Assembly (NCBI RefSeq): GCF_020630935.1
Contig: NZ_JAHDIG010000025.1
Span: 1-57,930, forward strand
DNA length: 57,930 bases
Reading direction: 5' to 3'
From: Bernardetia sp.
Lineage (GTDB): Bacteria; Bacteroidota; Bacteroidia; Cytophagales; Bernardetiaceae
The notes under the pieces were generated by a model. The model searched no databases. It had not been told where the DNA came from and saw only the letters and a program-made list of their open reading frames with translations. Position 1 is the stretch's first letter. Each line of letters opens with the position of its first letter. Position numbers and translations under genes: made by a program. Positions 1 through 52,609 of this stretch are shown here, in pieces.

Positions 1-71
1 AAATTGAAAATTAATCCCTAATTTACGATTTTGCAACTAAAATCATATAGTGCCAGGATTTTTTTAAAAAT

Positions 72-908
72 ATGAAATACTTAAGCGAAATTTATAAGAG
101 AATTATCAGCCGAGAGCCTTCTCTACTAATTTTCATTTGTCTTATTGGCTCTTTTTTAATGATTGTGGATTCGTTTTTTATAGAAATTAAGCCTTTAGTT
201 GATAATTTCAGAAGTGAAATAGTATTATGCTGTCTTCTGTTCGTTATTGTGCTATCTGTATTAATAGATTTACATAAGAAAAACTATCAAATATACAGAT
301 GGTTGATAGTATTAGTGATCGGAATACTGATTGCTACTCAAGTAATTTTCAATAACGGGAATATCAATGTACTTCATATTGTTCTCTTTGCTGTATTATT
401 ATTAGCAATAAACAAAAGAGCATTCATTAAACTTGTAAAAAATATGCCATCTGTAGGGCTTCCTGCTATGTATATTTTGACAAAAGTGGAGCAAGAAATA
501 GAGCTAGAAAGTAAGCAAATAATAGATAAAAACATTTATGATAGCTATAAAAAAGCCATTAATCATAATAATACAATAGACTTAGCAATAATTGATATAA
601 AGTTTAAAATAAAACAAGAACTCAAAAACTTCTACGACAAACACAATGAAGTAACAACCACAGAACTAAGCAAGTTACTAGAGTTTTTATACCCAAGAAT
701 TGAAGAAAGTTTAGAAGAAAATATTTTTCAGAAATTTTTAGAATTAAAAACAATAAAGGACGAGAATAAAATTCGTTTTTGGGAAATAGGATATGAAATG
801 TTACTGCTAACCAAAAGGTTAGCAGCAGATGATTCTTTAAATGTTCAGAAAGCTCATAAAGATTTTATAGATAAACCAAAAGGGATTGAAATTCAAAAAA
901 ATCCTTAG
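72..908 (+). CDS. Membrane protein, N-terminal half of a nonsense-split VWA gene
   Basis: A 278-residue reading frame with four predicted membrane segments near residues 17-37, 50-67, 76-94 and 99-114, followed by about 160 hydrophilic, lysine/glutamate-rich residues likely in the cytoplasm. I do not recognise the family of this half. It ends at TAG (906-908), but the same frame stays open through the VWA domain downstream, with no spacer and no conventional start codon before position 1038. The simplest reading is one gene of about 570 codons interrupted by a single amber codon. The first ATG at 72 follows an A/T-rich leader. The function of the intact protein cannot be assigned beyond a membrane-anchored VWA protein. 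Confidence 0.7.
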   Translation: MKYLSEIYKRIISREPSLLIFICLIGSFLMIVDSFFIEIKPLVDNFRSEIVLCCLLFVIVLSVLIDLHKKNYQIYRWLIVLVIGILIATQVIFNNGNINVLHIVLFAVLLLAINKRAFIKLVKNMPSVGLPAMYILTKVEQEIELESKQIIDKNIYDSYKKAINHNNTIDLAIIDIKFKIKQELKNFYDKHNEVTTTELSKLLEFLYPRIEESLEENIFQKFLELKTIKDENKIRFWEIGYEMLLLTKRLAADDSLNVQKAHKDFIDKPKGIEIQKNP

Positions 909-1037
909 CCAGAGTTCATCTCAGAAAATGAAATTGTTTGCAAAGTAAGTCTTTTAGATTCTAAAAGGAATCGTTTTCCTTTACAAACCCTAAATGAGAC
1001 ACATTTTGAAGTTTGGGAAGATGGTAAAAAAGTTGAA

Positions 1038-1784
1038 GTGATATCAGTAAAGCCAACTGATGAGCCAATTAAACTTAAAGTATTAATGGTAATAGATTCA
1101 AGTCGCTCCATGTTTTTTGAAGATGACACAAATAATCCTGTAGATAGGTATAAAAATGTAGAAGAAGCAATAGAAAAGCTTACAGTTAATTTAAATAGTT
1201 TATCTAAAATAGATTGGTATATTTCATTACTTTTATTTAAAGTTGATTCTCAATTTGTTTTAGGAGATGGCATTTGGTCTAACAAGACTGAAGATATAAA
1301 GAGGGGACTAAAGAAACATACAAAATTAGTAAATGAGGGTACAGCTATATGGGATACCCTATATAAAGCCGTCAATGTTATTGAGAAGGAAAAAATAGGT
1401 TATAGAGTAATAGTATGTTTGACTGATGGAGAGGACAATAGAGATAGTACAGGAGAAAAATTTCAATTAGTTAAACGTAAAGTTGAAGAAGTAAGTATTC
1501 CAATATACACAGTTGGATATGGTTTAAAATCTAATTTACTAAAAGAAATAGCTGTAGCTTCTAGATATGAGGGAGGAACTAGCAAGTATTATGGAGGGAC
1601 AGATATAGAAGGCATCAAGAAAATGTTTAATGAATTACCAAAATTAGCTTCTCACGCATATAATATAAAATTTAATCGTAAAAAAAAGGACAGTAAGATT
1701 GAAATCATGGTAAAACTCTATGATATCTATGAAAAAGAATACTTTAAGGATAAATTTGAAGTGCCAATAAAGGAGATTAGTTAG
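1038..1784 (+). CDS. VWA domain protein, C-terminal half of the split gene
   Basis: A von Willebrand factor A domain with a complete MIDAS metal site: DSSRS at about residues 18-22, the Thr in EGTAIW and the Asp in LTDGED. The first conventional start is GTG at 1038, but coding sequence clearly extends upstream: codons 909-1037 are open and encode a stretch (DSKRNRF, then HFEVWEDGKKVEV) typical of the strand that precedes the VWA core in 'VWFA-related' proteins. No ATG, GTG or TTG lies in frame between the TAG at 906 and 1038. The fragment alone would lack that strand, so it is probably the 3' half of the gene beginning at 72. VWA domains usually mediate metal-dependent protein contacts; the partner is unknown. 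Confidence 0.75.
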   Translation: MISVKPTDEPIKLKVLMVIDSSRSMFFEDDTNNPVDRYKNVEEAIEKLTVNLNSLSKIDWYISLLLFKVDSQFVLGDGIWSNKTEDIKRGLKKHTKLVNEGTAIWDTLYKAVNVIEKEKIGYRVIVCLTDGEDNRDSTGEKFQLVKRKVEEVSIPIYTVGYGLKSNLLKEIAVASRYEGGTSKYYGGTDIEGIKKMFNELPKLASHAYNIKFNRKKKDSKIEIMVKLYDIYEKEYFKDKFEVPIKEIS

Positions 1785-1827
1785 CCCTAAGTATTTTTCA
1801 ATATATTACTTTATAATGTAAAAAATA

Positions 1828-2550
1828 TCAACTAAACTCAATTTTATACTCTAATCCAATTTGCTCAAAAAAACTTTCTTTCTGATAAAATATTTCCTTC
1901 TGTTCTTCTGTGAGTTCTTTTGCCTTGCCAACCACAACAAAATCTATGGCTTTCTGTGGATTTCCTTTGCCATCACAGACTAAAAAACTAATGATTTCAT
2001 TTTCAAGATTCTCAAATTCTTCAAAATTTTGTTCTTCTAAAAAGACAGAAATAGCAATTTGAGGATAGACAAAATGTTCCTCTCTACGAAGCTGCTTAAA
2101 AAACTGTAAGTGTTGAGAGGTAGGAAAAATAGATTTTATCTTTCCAGAAAATTGTAATGAATTTTTTGTCTTTGCTTTTTTAGCTTGTCTTTTTTCTAAG
2201 GCACCTTTACAACTTTCACACAAATAAGGCACAGGATTTTCCCACGGCTGATATTCATACACTTTTCTGTTAGAGTAGAAATCATTTCTGCGATTGAGAA
2301 AATGAGTAGGTATACCACATAAATCACATTTTGACTTTTTGATATAAGCACGACTATACTGAGCAACCTTATTATGAATCTGACGAGGCTTTAGACGAAA
2401 ATTCAGAGCCAGTTCAGAAAGTGTATAACGAAATTTTTCTTTGGCATCGAAAAGTTCTTGTTCTTCTGTGTTGAGCAGCCAATAACAACGACAAAGTTCT
2501 CTTTCGTCCTCATCTTCGGTCAAATAATCTATTTCAATCTCTGGTAACAT
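1828..2550 (-). CDS. HTH/zinc-ribbon protein with possible degenerate DUF2726-like C-terminus
   Basis: A 240-residue protein I cannot name with confidence. It has an acidic N-terminus, a helix-turn-helix-like stretch near residues 45-70 (SELALNFRLKPRQIHNK), then two CxxC pairs (CDLC and CESC, about 35 residues apart) suggesting a zinc ribbon, followed by a basic linker (KRQAKKAKTK). The last 100 residues resemble in pattern the DUF2726 type of PD-(D/E)XK nuclease fold (hydrophobic strand, FLVCDGKGNP, AIDFVVVG, then KESFFEQIGL), but the acidic catalytic residues expected in that fold look replaced. A nucleic-acid-binding role is an inference. It converges with the VWA gene and starts with ATG at 2550. 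Confidence 0.6.
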   Translation of the reverse strand: MLPEIEIDYLTEDEDERELCRCYWLLNTEEQELFDAKEKFRYTLSELALNFRLKPRQIHNKVAQYSRAYIKKSKCDLCGIPTHFLNRRNDFYSNRKVYEYQPWENPVPYLCESCKGALEKRQAKKAKTKNSLQFSGKIKSIFPTSQHLQFFKQLRREEHFVYPQIAISVFLEEQNFEEFENLENEIISFLVCDGKGNPQKAIDFVVVGKAKELTEEQKEIFYQKESFFEQIGLEYKIEFS

Positions 2551-2611
2551 AAACTAATTATAAGTTTTTAATGATTAGTGATTAATAAATACAAGTAGCT
2601 AGAGTACGAAC

Positions 2612-2650
2612 AGATATTTGTTGTTTTCTGTGTTACAGAACAGGGAAAAG
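2612..2650. repeat. Dispersed hairpin repeat R1, copy A
   Basis: AGATATTTGTTG followed by a palindrome TTCTGT-GTT-ACAGAA and then CAGGGAAAAG. The same arrangement recurs at 26846-26885 and 48916-48954, always between genes. It sits downstream of the ftsA stop codon, outside the probable terminator. Confidence 0.75.
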
Positions 2651-2654
2651 ACTT

Positions 2655-2676
2655 AAATGCAGTCATCAACGAGGAT
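2655..2676. repeat. Dispersed repeat R2, copy A
   Basis: AAATGCAGTCATCAACGAGG followed by AT matches 18 of 22 positions of 33834-33855. It directly follows hairpin repeat R1 copy A. Related sequence lies at 55323-55356. Confidence 0.55.
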
Positions 2677-2712
2677 AAAAAAACAGACTTAAATTTCACT
2701 TTAAATCTGTCT
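2677..2712 (-). terminator. Intrinsic terminator of ftsQA
   Basis: Read on the minus strand, an 11-bp stem (ACAGATTTAAA / TTTAAGTCTGT, one G-U pair, 6-nt loop) runs into a tract of seven U. It lies about 60 bp after the ftsA stop codon and closes the ftsQ-ftsA transcript. Confidence 0.7.
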
Positions 2713-2771
2713 TCATAATTATAAAAATATGAATTGTATTCATTAATCATTAATAACTAACAATTCATCAT

Positions 2772-4106
2772 TTAGTAGGTGCTTTTATCATCAAAATCAT
2801 CAATCAAGAGTTCTTTGGTTTTTTTCAAAATATTAGCAAAAAATCCTCCTGTTGGTTTTGCAGCTTGTTTCTTTACTTCTTGTCCTTGGCTATTAATCTC
2901 ATAACCTACGTCTAATGCCTTATCGTAATCTCTTTGATAAACATCTCTATCATCTAAAGTTCTGAAACCAGCCAACACCAAACCTACACCAGTAGCGTAC
3001 ATCGGATTCTTGACACTTTCAGATTGACTTCTTCCTAAATATTCATTCGGATAACCAATACGAACATCTAAGCCTGTTTTGTATTCAAAAAGTTCTTTCA
3101 AATATTGCAAAAGAGAACCTCCACCCGTCAAGACCACTCCACCAGCCAAACGATTTTTATAGCCCGAACGCACAATCTCTCCATAAACAAGCTCTACAAT
3201 TTCTTCCATTCTCGCCTCAATAATATACGACAAGTTTTTGATAGAAATTTCTTTTGAAGAACGATTGCGAAGCCCTGGGATTGATACAACTTCATTGTCT
3301 GGAGCATCTTTTGCCAAACAGCGTCCGAATTTTACTTTCAAAAGTTCAGCTTGATTTTGCATCACAGCACAGCCTTGCTTTATGTCGGAAGTGATAATAT
3401 TTCCACCAAAAGGAATCACAGAAGTATGACGAATAATTCCATCAATAAAAATGGCTAAATCAGTCGTTCCTCCTCCAATATCCACAATGGCAACACCCGC
3501 TTCTTTTTCTTCTTCACTCAGCACTGAAAGTGCAGATGCCAAAGGCTCAAGAATTAGATTATCAATCTCCAAACCTGCACGCTGCACACATTTTTTAATA
3601 TTTCGAATCGCATTGGTTTGAGCTGTAATGATATGAAAATCAGCTTCTAGCTTTACACCAGCCATTCCGACAGGGTCTTTTATATTTGGTTCATAATCAA
3701 CAGTATAATGTTGTGGCATTACGTGAATTATGTCTGTACCAGGTTCGGTTACGATACGATACATATCGTTGGTTAGGCGATTTACGTCAGAAGGTGTAAT
3801 TTCTCCATCTTTAGAATTTCTTGTAATCCCTCCGTGATGTACCGAACTTTTGATATGCTTACCTGCAATTCCTACATTTACAATACGAAGATTTACGCCC
3901 GAATTGCGCTCGGCTTCCTCAACAGCTTGTGTTATAGCTGCTACTGTTTTATTGATATTACTGATTATTCCTTCTTTCACACCTTCAGAAACGGCTTGTC
4001 CCATTCCCAAAACTTCCAATTTATCGTATTCATTCATTCTGCCTACGATAACACAAATTTTTGTTGTTCCGATGTCTAGTCCTGCTACTATTCTTTGATT
4101 TTGCAT
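2772..4106 (-). CDS. ftsA: Cell division protein FtsA
   Basis: Actin-like ATPase that tethers FtsZ filaments to the membrane and recruits later divisome proteins. 444 residues, near normal length. The nucleotide-binding motifs are visible: DIGTTK at residues 11-16, VDIGGGTTDLA near 208-218 and the adenosine motif LTGGGSLLQ near 327-335. The C-terminus carries a short amphipathic segment (FFANILKKTKELL) suited to membrane binding. It lies 75 bp after ftsQ in the same direction. In most Bacteroidota ftsZ follows directly; here a terminator and an unrelated gene follow instead. The start at ATG 4106 gives the expected N-terminal sheet. Confidence 0.95.
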   Translation of the reverse strand: MQNQRIVAGLDIGTTKICVIVGRMNEYDKLEVLGMGQAVSEGVKEGIISNINKTVAAITQAVEEAERNSGVNLRIVNVGIAGKHIKSSVHHGGITRNSKDGEITPSDVNRLTNDMYRIVTEPGTDIIHVMPQHYTVDYEPNIKDPVGMAGVKLEADFHIITAQTNAIRNIKKCVQRAGLEIDNLILEPLASALSVLSEEEKEAGVAIVDIGGGTTDLAIFIDGIIRHTSVIPFGGNIITSDIKQGCAVMQNQAELLKVKFGRCLAKDAPDNEVVSIPGLRNRSSKEISIKNLSYIIEARMEEIVELVYGEIVRSGYKNRLAGGVVLTGGGSLLQYLKELFEYKTGLDVRIGYPNEYLGRSQSESVKNPMYATGVGLVLAGFRTLDDRDVYQRDYDKALDVGYEINSQGQEVKKQAAKPTGGFFANILKKTKELLIDDFDDKSTY

Positions 4107-4181
4107 ATTTCTTTATGTCGGAATGAATATAGTGTCTTTAAAAAATTACCATATTCATCAATTAATTTTATGTTTTACTAT

Positions 4182-4952
4182 TTATTTACAGACAATCTGA
4201 TTGTCGTATCTAACACTTACCATTTGATAACTTCCCCAGCCTTTCAGAGGAACAACTTTATCATAAAAAGTCTTCAAACGAGCTAGTTTGTCTTCCATAT
4301 TTTCTGGTGTACCTAGCTCAATGAGTTGCTCGCCCACCTGTGGATAAGCTACCAAATTTCCCTTTGTATCTCGCTCTAGCTGCGTAATTTGGGCTTTCCA
4401 AAACGGCTGTTTGTCTATTTCTTTGAGTGCATTTATAAATACTTTTCCCTCTGGCATCTTCCAAAAAGCAGTATCTAAAAGTTCTGTATCACTCTTTTTT
4501 TCACTTGAGAGCAACATTACTCTTGCTGTAAAATTAGGAGAAAGTGGAATTAACTTTCCTGTTTCGGTAATATAAGCACCTTTAGATGTATTTTTGTTCA
4601 AAATTCGTGCAAGAGGCTTTAATTCTTCTACCTCTATACGTAAGACTCCTTTCGAATCTATTGTTACCTGACACTCATCTACAAAGTTATTAGTTTTTAT
4701 GGAGTTTTCAATTTTTTTAGTGTCTATCTCTTTTATTTTGAGGTTGTTTACATCAATTTTGGCATCCTGCCGAACCAATTTCAAAATCTCTACATCTGTC
4801 AGAAAGTGAGAAGTATCTTGAGGATTTTGGGCTGCATTCTTTACTAAAATATGTACATTTTTTACCATCTGTCCACGCTGATAGACTTCTGTAACTGCCA
4901 CAACTACACAGATAGCCAAAACAAACAAAATTATTTTTATAGGGATTTTCAA
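4182..4952 (-). CDS. ftsQ: Cell division protein FtsQ
   Basis: Bitopic divisome protein of 256 residues. It has a short cytoplasmic tail, one membrane segment (about residues 5-21), then a periplasmic POTRA-like region followed by the beta domain. The stretch near residues 70-112 (INTKKIE-like helix, CQVTIDSKGVLRIEVEELKP) matches the start of the FtsQ fold, and ITETGKLIPLSP matches the conserved YVDETG-like region of other FtsQ proteins. It precedes ftsA by 75 bp, the classic order. murC/murG, usually found upstream, are absent; the upstream neighbours are the skp/bamA operon, separated by a terminator. Confidence 0.88.
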   Translation of the reverse strand: MKIPIKIILFVLAICVVVAVTEVYQRGQMVKNVHILVKNAAQNPQDTSHFLTDVEILKLVRQDAKIDVNNLKIKEIDTKKIENSIKTNNFVDECQVTIDSKGVLRIEVEELKPLARILNKNTSKGAYITETGKLIPLSPNFTARVMLLSSEKKSDTELLDTAFWKMPEGKVFINALKEIDKQPFWKAQITQLERDTKGNLVAYPQVGEQLIELGTPENMEDKLARLKTFYDKVVPLKGWGSYQMVSVRYDNQIVCK

Positions 4953-5149: not shown

Positions 5150-5758
5150 TTAGTTCTGTGCTTTCTGTGCAGCTTCCATTTGAGCTTTTAGCTCGTCTTC
5201 TAGCTTCTTGTTAGCAGCAGCTAATTCTTCTGCTGTCATTTTCACGCCTAATTTGTTCAAAACTAAAAGTGTTACATCAATTTGGTCAGTAGAGTAAAGG
5301 AAGTTGTCTTGTCCCATTCCGTCTTGGCTACTCAAAATGAATGTATAACCATTTTCTTTTCCTACTTCTTCGATAGCTGTTTTTACTTTTTTCAAAATAG
5401 GCGTTTGAAGACTCGTTTGCATTTTTTGAAGCTCTCTAGTGTAGAGTTCTTGCTCTTGTTGAAGTTCTTGCTGGAGTTTTTGAAGTTCTGCTGCCTTAGT
5501 TTGAAGTGCAACAGGAGGAATATTTGGGTCTTGACGGTCTTTCTCAAACTTTGCATATTTTGCTTCAAAATCTTTTTGCTTATCTGCTAAAATACCACTA
5601 AGTGCAGCTTCTGTTTTCTTGAGAGAATCTTGCGCTTTTTGATATTCAGGAACGTGAGGCAAAATAAGATAAGCACTTGTATAACCAATCTTTACATTTT
5701 GTGCATTGGCAGCAAAACCAAATGCAAATAGTGTGAGTAGAAGAAATATCTTTTTCAT
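5150..5758 (-). CDS. OmpH/Skp family periplasmic chaperone (third paralogue)
   Basis: Skp-type proteins hold unfolded outer-membrane proteins in the periplasm for the Bam machine. I start the gene at ATG 5758, giving 202 residues with a clean signal peptide (MKKIFLLLTLFAFGFAANAQ). The 22 extra codons upstream would place hydrophilic sequence before the signal. The mature part begins with KIGYTS, the usual Skp strand, then a long glutamine/lysine-rich coiled coil (about residues 50-130) forming the tentacle, and returns to the fold with YTFILSSQDG. A charged tail of about 20 residues (KKLEDELKAQMEAAQKAQ) follows. It is the last gene of a tandem triplet. A TAccTTTG motif upstream (minus strand, 5836-5843) may give it its own promoter. 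Confidence 0.87.
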   Translation of the reverse strand: MKKIFLLLTLFAFGFAANAQNVKIGYTSAYLILPHVPEYQKAQDSLKKTEAALSGILADKQKDFEAKYAKFEKDRQDPNIPPVALQTKAAELQKLQQELQQEQELYTRELQKMQTSLQTPILKKVKTAIEEVGKENGYTFILSSQDGMGQDNFLYSTDQIDVTLLVLNKLGVKMTAEELAAANKKLEDELKAQMEAAQKAQN

Positions 5759-5835
5759 CGTTTGTTTTGTCTTGTATATAGAATTATAGTTTTTCTTTGA
5801 GCTATTGAAATTAGCTGCACTCAAAAATAATTCTG

Positions 5836-5843
5836 CAAAGGTA
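5836..5843 (-). promoter_or_regulatory. Possible -7 box (TAccTTTG) before third skp-like gene
   Basis: Minus-strand TACCTTTG matches the Bacteroidota -7 consensus, 78 bp before the ATG at 5758. I see no TTG at the usual -33 distance, so this is weak. Confidence 0.35.
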
Positions 5844-5890
5844 AGTAATTAATTAATTTTAATTGTTGTAAGGGTCAGAATTGATTTTTA

Positions 5891-6409
5891 TTATTGAAGT
5901 CCTAACTTTTTGATTACTAAGTCTGTAATATCTGTTCCTTCTGCCGAATAAAGAATATAAGCTGTATTTGTACCATCTAATTCATTCAATATCAGAACAT
6001 AATTTCCTTCCTTTCCAACTTCTTTTATGGCTTCACGGATTTTTTCATAGATAGGAAAAAGTAAATCGTTTTGTTTTTTCTGAAAACGCTCTTCTGCTTG
6101 TTTTTCCTGCTCTTGAATTGCAGCATACATGGTTTGAAGTTCTTGTTGTGCAGCTTGTTGTTGTGCTTGATTAGTTACAGTTTTTTCCAACTCTGCTTGT
6201 CTAGCTTGGAGTTTCTGATATTCTCCTTGTAAGTTTTTCTGAATTACTTTTTGTAATCCTTCTAGTTCAGAAGTTGCAGCTTTGTAAGCTGGCATCATAC
6301 TAGCCACAGAATCTACTTGTACATAGCCTATTTTTTGAGCATTTGCTTGTGTATTGATAAAAAATGCAAAAGCAAATAAAAGGCTTAGAGATAAAATTAT
6401 CTTTCTCAT
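5891..6409 (-). CDS. OmpH/Skp family periplasmic chaperone (second paralogue)
   Basis: 172 residues: a signal peptide ending at ANAQ (residues 1-24), the Skp strand KIGYVQVDSV, a glutamine-rich coiled coil (residues about 45-125) and the returning strand NYVLILNELDG. It lacks the charged tail of the third paralogue. It should act as a periplasmic holdase for outer-membrane proteins. It lies 74 bp after the first skp-like gene and about 130 bp before the third, all on the same strand behind bamA. Bacteroidota often carry two such genes here; three is one more than usual in my experience. Confidence 0.9.
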   Translation of the reverse strand: MRKIILSLSLLFAFAFFINTQANAQKIGYVQVDSVASMMPAYKAATSELEGLQKVIQKNLQGEYQKLQARQAELEKTVTNQAQQQAAQQELQTMYAAIQEQEKQAEERFQKKQNDLLFPIYEKIREAIKEVGKEGNYVLILNELDGTNTAYILYSAEGTDITDLVIKKLGLQ

Positions 6410-6483
6410 AATTTGAATAAGTTTTGTTTTAAGTGAGTTTGAAGGGTATTTTTTTATTTGTTGGAGATTTTAAATATTTAAGT

Positions 6484-7062
6484 TTATCCTTTATCGATAG
6501 AAATATTAGGGTCTTGAATACCTAGTTCTTCCAAAACGAAGTCGGTAAAGTTGTATGTCTCATCGTAGAAAAGCATGTGCAAGTCACTAGCTTTGTCAAA
6601 CATAAAATGCAGTTTCTTTTGCAACGAAACAATACGTACAGCTTCCATAATTTTGTCTTGAATCGGACGAATAAGTTCACGCCTTTTCTTAAAAAGAAGT
6701 CCGTTTGCACCAAAAATACTTTCTCTGTATGTAATTAAGTCTGTTTCTTTTTGAGCAATTTCTTTTTGTTTTTCAGCATACATTTCTTCTGTCAAGAGTA
6801 CTCTTTCAGCTTCTAATTTTGTACGACTGTCCAAAATCTCTTGTTGTTTTTTGGCTAGTTCAGCCTTCCACTGCTTGGTCATTTCTTCTAATTCTGAATT
6901 GGCTTGCGAATATTCTGGCAAACGCTCCAATATTTTTTGAGAATCGATATAACCAAAACGCTGAGCAGAAGCTATATTCGGATTTACTAAAGATACTAGC
7001 CCTACCAAAAATAGAGCAGAGACAGCAAAACGAATAGTTGTATTAAAAAAGGTTTTCATCAT
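6484..7062 (-). CDS. OmpH/Skp family periplasmic chaperone (first paralogue)
   Basis: 192 residues, the bamA-proximal member of the triplet. The signal peptide runs to SAQ near residue 34, then RFGYIDSQKILERLPEY, the canonical OmpH opening in this phylum. A charged coiled coil (about residues 55-115) follows and the C-terminal strand LHFMFDKASD returns to the core. It is more lysine/glutamate-rich and less glutamine-rich than its two neighbours, so the three copies have diverged. It is separated from bamA by about 195 bp holding an inverted-repeat element. Confidence 0.9.
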   Translation of the reverse strand: MMKTFFNTTIRFAVSALFLVGLVSLVNPNIASAQRFGYIDSQKILERLPEYSQANSELEEMTKQWKAELAKKQQEILDSRTKLEAERVLLTEEMYAEKQKEIAQKETDLITYRESIFGANGLLFKKRRELIRPIQDKIMEAVRIVSLQKKLHFMFDKASDLHMLFYDETYNFTDFVLEELGIQDPNISIDKG

Positions 7063-7257: not shown

Positions 7258-9888
7258 TTACCTAAGCATTTGTCCGATAGTAAAGTGGAACTGAGGACCG
7301 TTTGCAGCAGGATTGCCTGGTATTTGGTCAAATCCATACGCCCAGTCTATTCCTAAAAGACCAAATGCTGGCATAAAAATACGTGCGCCTACTCCAGCAG
7401 AACGTTTCAAATCAAATGGTTTGAAGTCTTGAAAACTTCCCCAGTTATTCCCACCTTCTGCAAACGCAAGAACAAAAATAGAGGCTGCTTGATTGAGGGT
7501 AACAGGATAGCGAAGCTCCATTACAAACTTATTGTATGCTACACCACCTTCTCTTTTTGAATCACTTGGAACAACAGAATTATCTTCATAACCTCTCAAA
7601 CCAATAATATCAGAACCTAAAAGTAAGTTACCAAAACCAAGACCAGCACCACCCAAAATAAATCTTTCAAATGGACTTGTCGGAGCATTTTTATTGTATG
7701 AGCCTATGAATCCCATGTGTGCTCTTGCACTAAAGACAAGGTCTCCAGCTATTGGCGTGTACCAAGTATTGTCAAACATCCATTTGTGATATTCTACAAA
7801 CTTAAATATATCAACATCTTCAGCTGTTTGGTAATCTATATTTCTGAACGAAGAGTATGGAGGAGTGAGTCCTAAACTAAGAGAAATAGTAGAACCATTG
7901 CGTGGGTAAATCGGACTATCTACACTAGAGCGAGAAAGTGTTGTATTGAAAACAATATTATTGAAAGAACCATCAATGATATTTCTAAAACCTGCTCTTG
8001 TGTAATTATTCAAACTATAACGCAAGAAAGATAGTGAGTTGCTAAGTGTAAAGTAGTTATCTGGCACTCTCAAACGGCGACCTAAAGCAAGTGTAATACC
8101 CGAGACTTGGAAATTACCTGTAATTTCTCTACTAAAATTGAACTCGCTTTGCTTTGAGTGTTGTAAACTAATAGAGAACGAGTTTGGCTTTTTGCCTCCC
8201 AACCAAGGCTCAGTAAATGAGAAAGAATACGTCTGGAACTGACGCCCACTTGCTTGAAAACGCAATGAAACTTGCTGTCCATCGCCTTGTGGAAGTGGCG
8301 ACCACGAACTAAAATCTAACAAACGACTAGAAGAGAAATTATTAAATGTTAGTCCAAGAGTTCCGATGAAACCAATAGTTCCACCTCCCCATCCCCCAGA
8401 GAGTTCAATTTGGTCGTTTGGTTTTTCTACTACTGAATAGTGAATATCTACTGTTCCGTCTGCCATATTCGGAATAGGATTTATACCTATTTGTTCAGCA
8501 TCAAAATATCCGAGTTGAGAAAGTTGTTGTTGTGTTCTTAATAATGCTGAACGGCTAAATTTCTGCCCTGGAACGGTATAAACTTCTCTTAAAATAACAT
8601 GGTCTCTTGTACGAGTATTTCCTGTTACGATGACTTTACTTATAGTTGCTTGGTCTCCTTCAAAGATTCTCATTTCTATATCAATAGAATCATTTTCTAC
8701 TCTTACCTCAATAGGCTGAATATTGAAGAATAAATATCCATCATCCATATACAGAGAAGTAATATCTAAACCTGTTGGGTTATACGACATACGTTTCTGT
8801 AAATCTTCTGGGTTGTAAACATCTCCTTTTCTGATACCTAAAACTGAACTCAAAAGTGTATCTGAATGAATATAGTTACCCGACCAAGTAATATTTCTAT
8901 AATGATATTTATTTCCTTCGTTTACAGTCAATTTAATTTTGACATTGTCTCCTTCTTTCTTGACTGTATCCGAAATAACATAAGCATCTCGGTAACCTTG
9001 TTTGTTGTAGTAAGCAATAAGAGATTGTTTGTCGTTTTTAAATTCTTTAGGGATAAACTTAGAAGAGCGAAATATATTCCACGCTACAAACTCCTTTGTT
9101 TTTTTCATTTTACGCTTTAACTTCTTATCTGCAATCGCCTCGTTGCCTTCAATTTCAATATCTTCTATTCTTACTTTCTTGCCTTTATCTACATCGATTT
9201 CTAATCTAATACTGTTGGCTAGTGTAGTATCTTTTTTCTGAACGATATTTACCTTGATATTATTAAAGCCTTTTTGAATGTAGTGTTGTTTAATGGCAAC
9301 TTCTGTATTTTTGATAATAACATCGTTTACAATACGTCCACGCACGAGCGTTACTTTGTCTTTCAACGTATTCTGTTGTCCTTTTGGAATACCTGTAAAA
9401 TCAAAACGAGATAACCTTGGTCGTTCGGTCAAGATAAGTTTTAGAAATATTTTTTCTCCCTCTACTTTATCTACTTCAATACTCACATCTCCTAGAAGTC
9501 CTTGTTTCCAAAGTTTACGAATAGCAAGTCCGATAGTCTCTCCTGGAACGATTATTTTGTCTCCAATACGTAATCCTGTAAGTGAAATGAGTGCATTTGG
9601 GTCAAGATAGCTTGCTCCTTCTACACTAATTCCTCCAATAGTATATTCTTTAGGGTTTGCATAATCAAAATCTTTCTTAGAAGAAGTTCCAAAACTGCCT
9701 AATCCTTTAAACGGTGTAGTTTGGGCAACAACTGAAATTACATTTCCGAAGAATAAAGAGAAAAACAATAAAGAAAAAACAATACCTTTCGTAATGTTTT
9801 TTTCTGATAGAGAATGAATAAATTTATTATGAGAATACATAGATTCAAACAAGGATAATGAATGAGTAGAATAGCGTAGCTTTTTCAT
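7258..9888 (-). CDS. bamA: Outer membrane protein assembly factor BamA
   Basis: Omp85-family insertase that folds beta-barrels into the outer membrane. 876 residues. After an unusually long N-terminal leader (hydrophobic signal core at about residues 34-55, cleavage near VVAQ) come several POTRA repeats (about residues 80-480), recognisable by motifs such as ISVEGASYLDP, IEGNEAIADKKL and VTGNTRTRDHVI. The C-terminal 16-strand barrel contains FILGGAGLGFG, GLRGYEDN (the conserved RGF/Y lid motif) and ends in FTIGQMLR. It sits between uppS and three skp-like genes, the standard Bacteroidota arrangement. ATG codons at 9888 and about 50 nt inside are both possible starts. Confidence 0.95.
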   Translation of the reverse strand: MKKLRYSTHSLSLFESMYSHNKFIHSLSEKNITKGIVFSLLFFSLFFGNVISVVAQTTPFKGLGSFGTSSKKDFDYANPKEYTIGGISVEGASYLDPNALISLTGLRIGDKIIVPGETIGLAIRKLWKQGLLGDVSIEVDKVEGEKIFLKLILTERPRLSRFDFTGIPKGQQNTLKDKVTLVRGRIVNDVIIKNTEVAIKQHYIQKGFNNIKVNIVQKKDTTLANSIRLEIDVDKGKKVRIEDIEIEGNEAIADKKLKRKMKKTKEFVAWNIFRSSKFIPKEFKNDKQSLIAYYNKQGYRDAYVISDTVKKEGDNVKIKLTVNEGNKYHYRNITWSGNYIHSDTLLSSVLGIRKGDVYNPEDLQKRMSYNPTGLDITSLYMDDGYLFFNIQPIEVRVENDSIDIEMRIFEGDQATISKVIVTGNTRTRDHVILREVYTVPGQKFSRSALLRTQQQLSQLGYFDAEQIGINPIPNMADGTVDIHYSVVEKPNDQIELSGGWGGGTIGFIGTLGLTFNNFSSSRLLDFSSWSPLPQGDGQQVSLRFQASGRQFQTYSFSFTEPWLGGKKPNSFSISLQHSKQSEFNFSREITGNFQVSGITLALGRRLRVPDNYFTLSNSLSFLRYSLNNYTRAGFRNIIDGSFNNIVFNTTLSRSSVDSPIYPRNGSTISLSLGLTPPYSSFRNIDYQTAEDVDIFKFVEYHKWMFDNTWYTPIAGDLVFSARAHMGFIGSYNKNAPTSPFERFILGGAGLGFGNLLLGSDIIGLRGYEDNSVVPSDSKREGGVAYNKFVMELRYPVTLNQAASIFVLAFAEGGNNWGSFQDFKPFDLKRSAGVGARIFMPAFGLLGIDWAYGFDQIPGNPAANGPQFHFTIGQMLR

Positions 9889-14401: not shown

Positions 14402-14476
14402 GGGCCTATAGCTCAGCTGGTTCAGAGCACCTGCCTTACAAGCAGGGGGTCATAGGTTCGAATCCTATTGGGCCCA
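14402..14476 (+). tRNA. tRNA-Val (anticodon UAC)
   Basis: 75 nt. The acceptor arms GGGCCTA/TGGGCCC pair (one G-U), the anticodon stem CCTGC/GCAGG encloses loop CTTACAA with anticodon TAC, and the T-arm ATAGG-TTCGAAT-CCTAT is perfect. Discriminator A; CCA not encoded. First of two identical tandem copies. Confidence 0.97.
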
Positions 14477-14519
14477 CATTTTTTACTTTACAATTTCAAA
14501 ATTGAGAAAACTATTAAAA

Positions 14520-14594
14520 GGGCCTATAGCTCAGCTGGTTCAGAGCACCTGCCTTACAAGCAGGGGGTCATAGGTTCGAATCCTATTGGGCCCA
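14520..14594 (+). tRNA. tRNA-Val (anticodon UAC), second copy
   Basis: Identical over all 75 nt to the copy at 14402-14476, 43 bp downstream in the same direction, so probably co-transcribed from the promoter at 14302. Confidence 0.97.
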
Positions 14595-14691
14595 CACTTT
14601 TAAAAAGGTTTTAAGAAAATTAATTTTGATTAGTTTTTTTAAAGCCTTTTTTTTGTGTCTATATTTTACATCCACCAATTTTTATTCTCTT

Positions 14692-52265: not shown

Positions 52266-52281
52266 AATTCAAAAAAAAATG

Positions 52282-52354
52282 TGATCCCGCTGAGGCTCGA
52301 ACTCAGGACCCCAACATTAAAAGTGTTGTGCTCTACCAACTGAGCTACGGAATC
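52282..52354 (-). tRNA. tRNA-Lys (anticodon UUU), distal copy
   Basis: 73 nt. On the minus strand the acceptor GATTCCG/CGGGATC, anticodon arm CAACA-CTTTTAA-TGTTG (anticodon TTT) and T-arm CTGAG-TTCGAGC-CTCAG all fold. Identical to the copy at 52537-52609. CCA not encoded. Confidence 0.97.
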
Positions 52355-52407
52355 AAAACAAATTATCAACTTAATTACTAAACCTTTTATCTATCTAATT
52401 TTTAACG

Positions 52408-52491
52408 TGCTCACGGAGCGATTCGAACGCTCACACACGTACGTGCACCACCCCCTCAAGATGGCGTGTCTACCAATTCCACCACGTGAGC
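52408..52491 (-). tRNA. tRNA-Leu (anticodon GAG)
   Basis: 84 nt with the long variable arm of a class II tRNA. Acceptor GCTCACG/CGTGAGC, anticodon arm CCATC-TTGAGGG-GGTGG giving anticodon GAG (codons CUU/CUC). It lies between the two tRNA-Lys copies. Confidence 0.96.
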
Positions 52492-52536
52492 AAATATAAT
52501 TCTGATTTTGATTATCAGAATTATAAATAATACAAG

Positions 52537-52609
52537 TGATCCCGCTGAGGCTCGAACTCAGGACCCCAACATTAAAAGTGTTGTGCTCTACCAACTGAGC
52601 TACGGAATC
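52537..52609 (-). tRNA. tRNA-Lys (anticodon UUU), proximal copy
   Basis: Identical over 73 nt to the copy at 52282-52354. It is the first tRNA of the minus-strand Lys-Leu-Lys operon. Confidence 0.97.

Follow-up and report, generated by a model that had tools for sequence, protein, structure and literature searches.

Single in-frame stop codons in bacterial genes are described by Belinky et al. (2021, PMC7918605), in the sections drawn on here, as widespread, mostly short-lived and commonest in the mobilome category, and the authors argue that many genes carrying them remain under purifying selection and are not pseudogenes. The locus studied here is like these cases, for which an in-frame TAG is shown as an example, in that one stop interrupts an otherwise open gene; it is unlike them in that the published cases were filtered for a stop shared among orthologues, whereas ours comes from a single genome. 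On the protein side, vWA-MoxR conflict systems form the subject of PMC7159879, which played no part in our classification. The TIGR03436 proteins of NCBIfam resemble the C-terminal half of our gene, which aligns with them from its residue 11 (E 0.001) with the region preceding the VWA domain included, but this half scores 18.6 against a curated cut-off of 81.25 and is hence not a member, and the membrane half is unmatched. The only relative with the full architecture that we found is an uninterrupted ORF of 582 aa in Flammeovirga sp. SJP92 (NZ_LQAQ01000107.1; L055:5001-6746).

The window, that is the whole stretch of 57,930 nt that was analysed, is the entire contig C25 of a 153-contig draft genome of Bernardetia sp. 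Going beyond the earlier note, we found that the window spans a complete contig, which opens with 55 bases from the end of a multi-copy repeat beside the gene. The features of the locus are as follows.

1..55, no strand assigned: end of a multi-copy repeat at the contig break, probably an insertion sequence terminus, from shared contig starts
72..905, + strand: N half of the gene, 278 aa, with hydrophobic segments within residues 11-122 and then a region predicted as helical at low confidence, from the ORF, hydropathy and the model
906..908, + strand: in-frame TAG, codon 279, in the linker between the halves, from the sequence, with the linker position taken from the Flammeovirga alignments
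909..1037, + strand: 43 open codons without ATG, GTG or TTG, conserved pre-VWA region, from TIGR03436, Flammeovirga and tblastn matches
1038..1781, + strand: rest of the C half, open from GTG, from the ORF list and Pfam
about 1083-1559, + strand: VWA domain (Pfam PF00092), from the Pfam match
1095-1109, + strand: DxSxS motif, visible in the translation
1782..1784, + strand: terminal TAG of the gene, from the sequence

The ORF list holds a frame of 278 aa at 72-908, which starts at ATG and ends at the TAG of 906-908, and a frame of 248 aa at 1038-1784, which starts at GTG and ends at the TAG of 1782-1784. It had been claimed that the two share one reading frame and are parted by the first TAG only, and the translation of 72-1784 bears this out, as stops occur at codons 279 and 571 only. 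The TAG at codon 279 is thus the one defect in the 570 codons of the joint frame; no second disabling change and no further stop before 1782 was detected. Inspection of the 43 codons at 909-1037 likewise agreed with the claim that they hold no ATG, GTG or TTG, the other starts of table 11 in this stretch being ATC at 918 and ATT at 933. Given the base composition of the window, 7.4% of codons would be stops, and the 291 open codons after the TAG would arise by chance with P of about 2e-10, those 43 alone with P of about 0.04. The codon-usage score was 0.263 for the 43 codons and 0.292 for the part after 1038, to be compared with a mean of 0.316 (sd 0.080) for the 47 ORFs of 150 aa or more in the window, both halves included; codon usage downstream of the TAG is thus gene-like, while the N half, at 0.145, lies about two sd below the window ORFs. 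TAG terminates seven of these 47 ORFs, a count that includes the two halves. As TAG is a normal stop for 5 of the 45 others, a reassignment of the codon was rejected, in line with the earlier note.

The C half matches the VWA model PF00092 with 38.5 bits against a gathering cut-off of 23.8, and the match covers its residues 59-217, which lie entirely downstream of GTG 1038 (residue 44). A search against solved structures gave four weak matches in the VWA region, the best being BatB (3ibs, E 8e-4). The N half had no match in Pfam, NCBIfam, PADLOC or PHROGs at the limits used, and neither window half nor the Flammeovirga protein matched the anti-phage models of PADLOC-DB at E <=0.1. In a structure model of the read-through protein the mean pLDDT was 45, with residues 1-283 below 50 and residues 281-330 at about 50-78 by blocks of ten; this low-confidence model gives a weak hint of strands at residues 281-321, immediately downstream of the stop. 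When both halves were run by tblastn against 30 loci, the C half aligned from residues 1-24, upstream of GTG 1038, in six of them (L015, which holds the Flammeovirga gene, L046, L004, L051, L054 and L047). Together with the Flammeovirga and the below-cut-off TIGR03436 alignments this is in accordance with the claim that the 43 codons encode sequence expected before a VWA core, and from these comparisons we regard them as conserved protein sequence preceding that core. As they have none of the usual starts, they would be expected to continue a coding sequence from upstream; with initiation at GTG 1038 the VWA core is retained and the conserved pre-VWA region (C-half residues 8-43) would be lost.

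The two halves were compared pairwise with the Flammeovirga protein. The C half, from its residue 8, aligns with Flammeovirga residues 295-576 (27% identity, E 1e-22) and the N half with residues 15-280 (25% identity, E 4e-5), while the proteins as a whole are 29% identical in the alignment. The two matched regions are collinear in both proteins, and the site of the TAG falls in a 14-residue linker of the Flammeovirga protein (281-294) where sense codons are found. A hydrophobic N end, a region without family assignment, a short linker, the pre-VWA region and the VWA domain follow each other in the same order in both; the difference is that the Flammeovirga gene is one uninterrupted ORF. The N-half similarity is weak. 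It was missed at E <=0.01 in the search of 390 genomes of the order, where the Flammeovirga gene is absent from the N-half matches, and it was missed by tblastn on the 30 loci, in which L015 was found by the C half alone; the shuffle z-score of 9.8 for the N-half match is overstated, as shuffling breaks up hydrophobic runs. Based on order and spacing together with the strong C half, and with weak support from the N half, we infer that the two halves are one ancestral gene. The claim that a TAG splits one gene thus holds with a reserve as to the N half, and a comparison of orthologues at this position, which the earlier note had proposed, gave sense codons in one relative and no case of two separately starting genes. 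The surroundings are unlike in the two genomes. The Flammeovirga gene is preceded by one for a DNA methylase, one whose ResIII and TnsA-like matches fall below the cut-off, and one with DUF6615, whereas the window copy is flanked by the repeat end and a genus-conserved gene. The Flammeovirga surroundings (L027:1678-9508) suggest an accessory or defence island.

Further relatives were few. Neither half had a homologue at E <=0.001 in six genus mates or four family mates. The C half was found in 6 of the 390 order genomes at E <=1e-6, the own genome included, with one match along nearly the whole length (Flammeovirga); ORFs were examined in L015, L016, L017 and L004 of the five others, L018 being left out. 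At E <=0.01 the N half likewise had matches in 6 of 390 genomes, one of which is the own genome; of the remaining five matches four are short, and the fifth spans residues 42-265 but holds 13 internal stops. A joint profile matched 10 of 395 class genomes at E <=1e-12 (own included), the nine others within profile positions 314-563 only, and ORFs were examined for two of these nine. Of the 18 genomes from the Flammeovirga family two matched, one being the Flammeovirga gene itself and the other confined to the VWA part. Of the 30 loci, which include those without an ORF listing, 14 were matched by the C half in tblastn and two by the N half, none by both; the N-half loci, L011 and L014, hold stretches of 58 and 45 residues from the hydrophobic part (E 1e-5 and 0.001). 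Two scans of named genome contigs gave nothing in one and Flammeovirga only in the other, two scans of viral contigs gave no relative, and neither did tblastn of both window halves and the Flammeovirga protein against plasmids and phages. The order, class, Flammeovirga-family and named-genome searches revealed no relative with the two halves as separate genes. The gene appears to belong to a rare membrane-VWA family with two members found here.

The gene thus has a repeat end on one side and a genus-conserved gene on the other. At the repeat end, the 54-55 identical bases that open the window also open contigs C67, C97 and C70, with divergence right after base 55, which gives the look of a multi-copy element end in a broken short-read assembly. 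The 30-base terminus has four copies in the own genome and is absent, with up to 3 mismatches, from the other 389 order genomes, and the repeat (1-55) had no match in plasmids. We suggest that it is probably the terminus of an insertion sequence, probably mobile, whose body lies outside what was seen. ATG 72 comes 16 bases after the repeat end, so that the insertion sequence end may have replaced the upstream region and probably cut off the native promoter. A promoter scan gave 16 hits, no more than chance (12.8, sd 3.4). In C97 the same repeat end likewise precedes an ATG, at a distance of 22 bases. A stretch of 25 bases that matches contig C32 (E 8.8e-5) lies inside an ORF of another protein and was taken as coincidence.

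On the opposite side, the gene at 1828-2550, next to the VWA gene, is present in all six genus mates with 86-88% identity and has no Pfam match at E <=0.1; genus mate G001 holds a second, partial copy of it. When window positions 1-4200 were compared by blastn with the six syntenic stretches of the genus mates, matches were found only from base 1820-1834 on, and tblastn of either half against the same stretches gave nothing at E <=0.01. One of the six, L028, reaches only about 640 bases beyond the shared gene, and in the two for which ORFs were listed (L029 and L030) the genes adjoining the shared gene differ. Judged by these comparisons no other sampled member of the genus or family has the gene, a distribution that a dispensable gene would be expected to show.

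We consider it most likely that the observation is real and that its cause is ordinary, namely a recent nonsense mutation, the TAG at 906-908, in an accessory gene that is restricted to this genome and encodes a membrane-anchored VWA protein; we give this reading a probability of roughly two in three. One formerly continuous gene would then recently have acquired the single TAG. Ribosomes starting at ATG 72 would halt at codon 279 and release the 278-aa membrane and helical fragment, and the VWA half may be made at background level only, through leakage of the stop or weak internal starts. As a repeat that is probably mobile ends 16 bases before the ATG, the native promoter was probably lost, and since the gene is also restricted to this genome, loss of function may be tolerated; the gene is probably no longer normally expressed. 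In favour of a nonsense mutation is that one continuous ORF of a relative spans the stop position, at the E-values given above for the two halves. Against it, the N-half similarity to Flammeovirga is borderline as judged by alignment, and the stop lies in a linker between domains, the place at which a split would do least harm. The argument of Belinky et al. that many genes with in-frame stops are under purifying selection also counts against it. Further, decay itself lacks a direct sign, as there is no second disabling change. The intact frame, the gene-like codon usage after the TAG and the presence of the DxSxS motif indicate that the change would be recent and do not indicate decay itself. 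An ordinary nonsense mutation would be of little consequence, except as a caution in annotation that what looks like two neighbouring ORFs is a single broken gene; production of the full-length protein would mean that amber readthrough occurs naturally in this bacterial group, at the seam between domains.

The other explanations, a sequencing error, a functional split and readthrough, are less likely. The linker position of the TAG fits a functional split, with a 278-aa membrane protein and a soluble VWA partner started at GTG 1038 or at a rarer start. The Pfam match falls entirely after the GTG, and the N half is only weakly similar to the fused relative, which also suits such a split; on the other hand, the partner would omit C-half residues 8-43, the conserved pre-VWA region according to the alignments and the low-confidence model, and no relative with two separate genes appeared in the searches made, hence we hold the split to be unlikely. 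A sequencing or assembly error, by which the real base differs and the gene is a normal single ORF, gains from the draft state of the assembly in 153 contigs and from the fact that only one defect is seen in 570 codons while the Flammeovirga relative is intact. The error would have to be a substitution, as the frame is kept, and the site lies some 900 bases away from the contig end; the shared contig starts of 54-55 bases suggest a short-read graph assembly, a type in which consensus substitutions are rare. An error is likewise held to be unlikely.

Programmed or regulated readthrough of the UAG, which would yield a short product with the membrane part and a long one that also carries the VWA part, is very unlikely. 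The frame is still coding after the TAG, the split is at a domain seam and a proline codon precedes the stop. The sections of PMC7246954 used here state that termination in E. coli can be stalled by proline at the C terminus; they also give the authors' own assay as showing no significant change of expression with such a proline, which counts against the point. RNA structure at and after the stop did not exceed shuffles in three stretches (z -0.52, 0.01 and 0.77, nested folds only), and no Rfam element was found in 1-3000. Also, the stop is not conserved, as the sole and distant relative is without it and has sense codons; a lineage-specific case is possible. The 42 matches to RF00005, an incomplete list, included no CTA anticodon as read, as a suppressor or pyrrolysine tRNA would have, and one ambiguous anticodon (gcag); 150 of 390 candidates were scored, the list lacks the window tRNA-Leu (52407-52491), and it has no tRNA read as Asp or Pro. 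One of the readings covered 28 of the 30 loci from this tRNA search, the other two, L062 and L074, being contained in L061 and L073. More improbable still is the specific version in which the VWA module of a membrane-bound protein is appended only by UAG readthrough at the linker, with an anchor-only and a VWA-bearing form from one gene. Among the three options that the earlier note had offered, a recent nonsense mutation, a sequencing error and programmed readthrough, the evidence thus favours the nonsense mutation and goes against readthrough, which nothing specific supports.

Some minor observations were made elsewhere in the window and the genome. Three consecutive ORFs at 5150-7062, which we take to be OmpH/Skp-type periplasmic chaperones, lie beside a large ORF (7258-9888) that presumably encodes an outer-membrane assembly protein. 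Two identical tandem tRNA-Val genes are found at 14402-14595, and at 52281-52609 two identical tRNA-Lys genes flank a tRNA-Leu gene. The intron option of ARAGORN reported a 'tRNA-Stop (tta)' with a 478-nt intron wrapping the ends of L093, which was taken as an artefact of circular topology. Two tRNA genes of the own genome, C63:23812-23936 (-) and C2:2051-2169 (-), corresponding to L093:313-437 and L095:252-370, have 52 and 48 extra nucleotides inserted at the anticodon loop; with introns allowed, ARAGORN reads them as Lys and, with less certainty, Val. Hand-picked stretches around these inserts resemble each other, with a score of 34 against 15.1 (sd 5.6) for shuffles, 5 of 2000 of which reach it.
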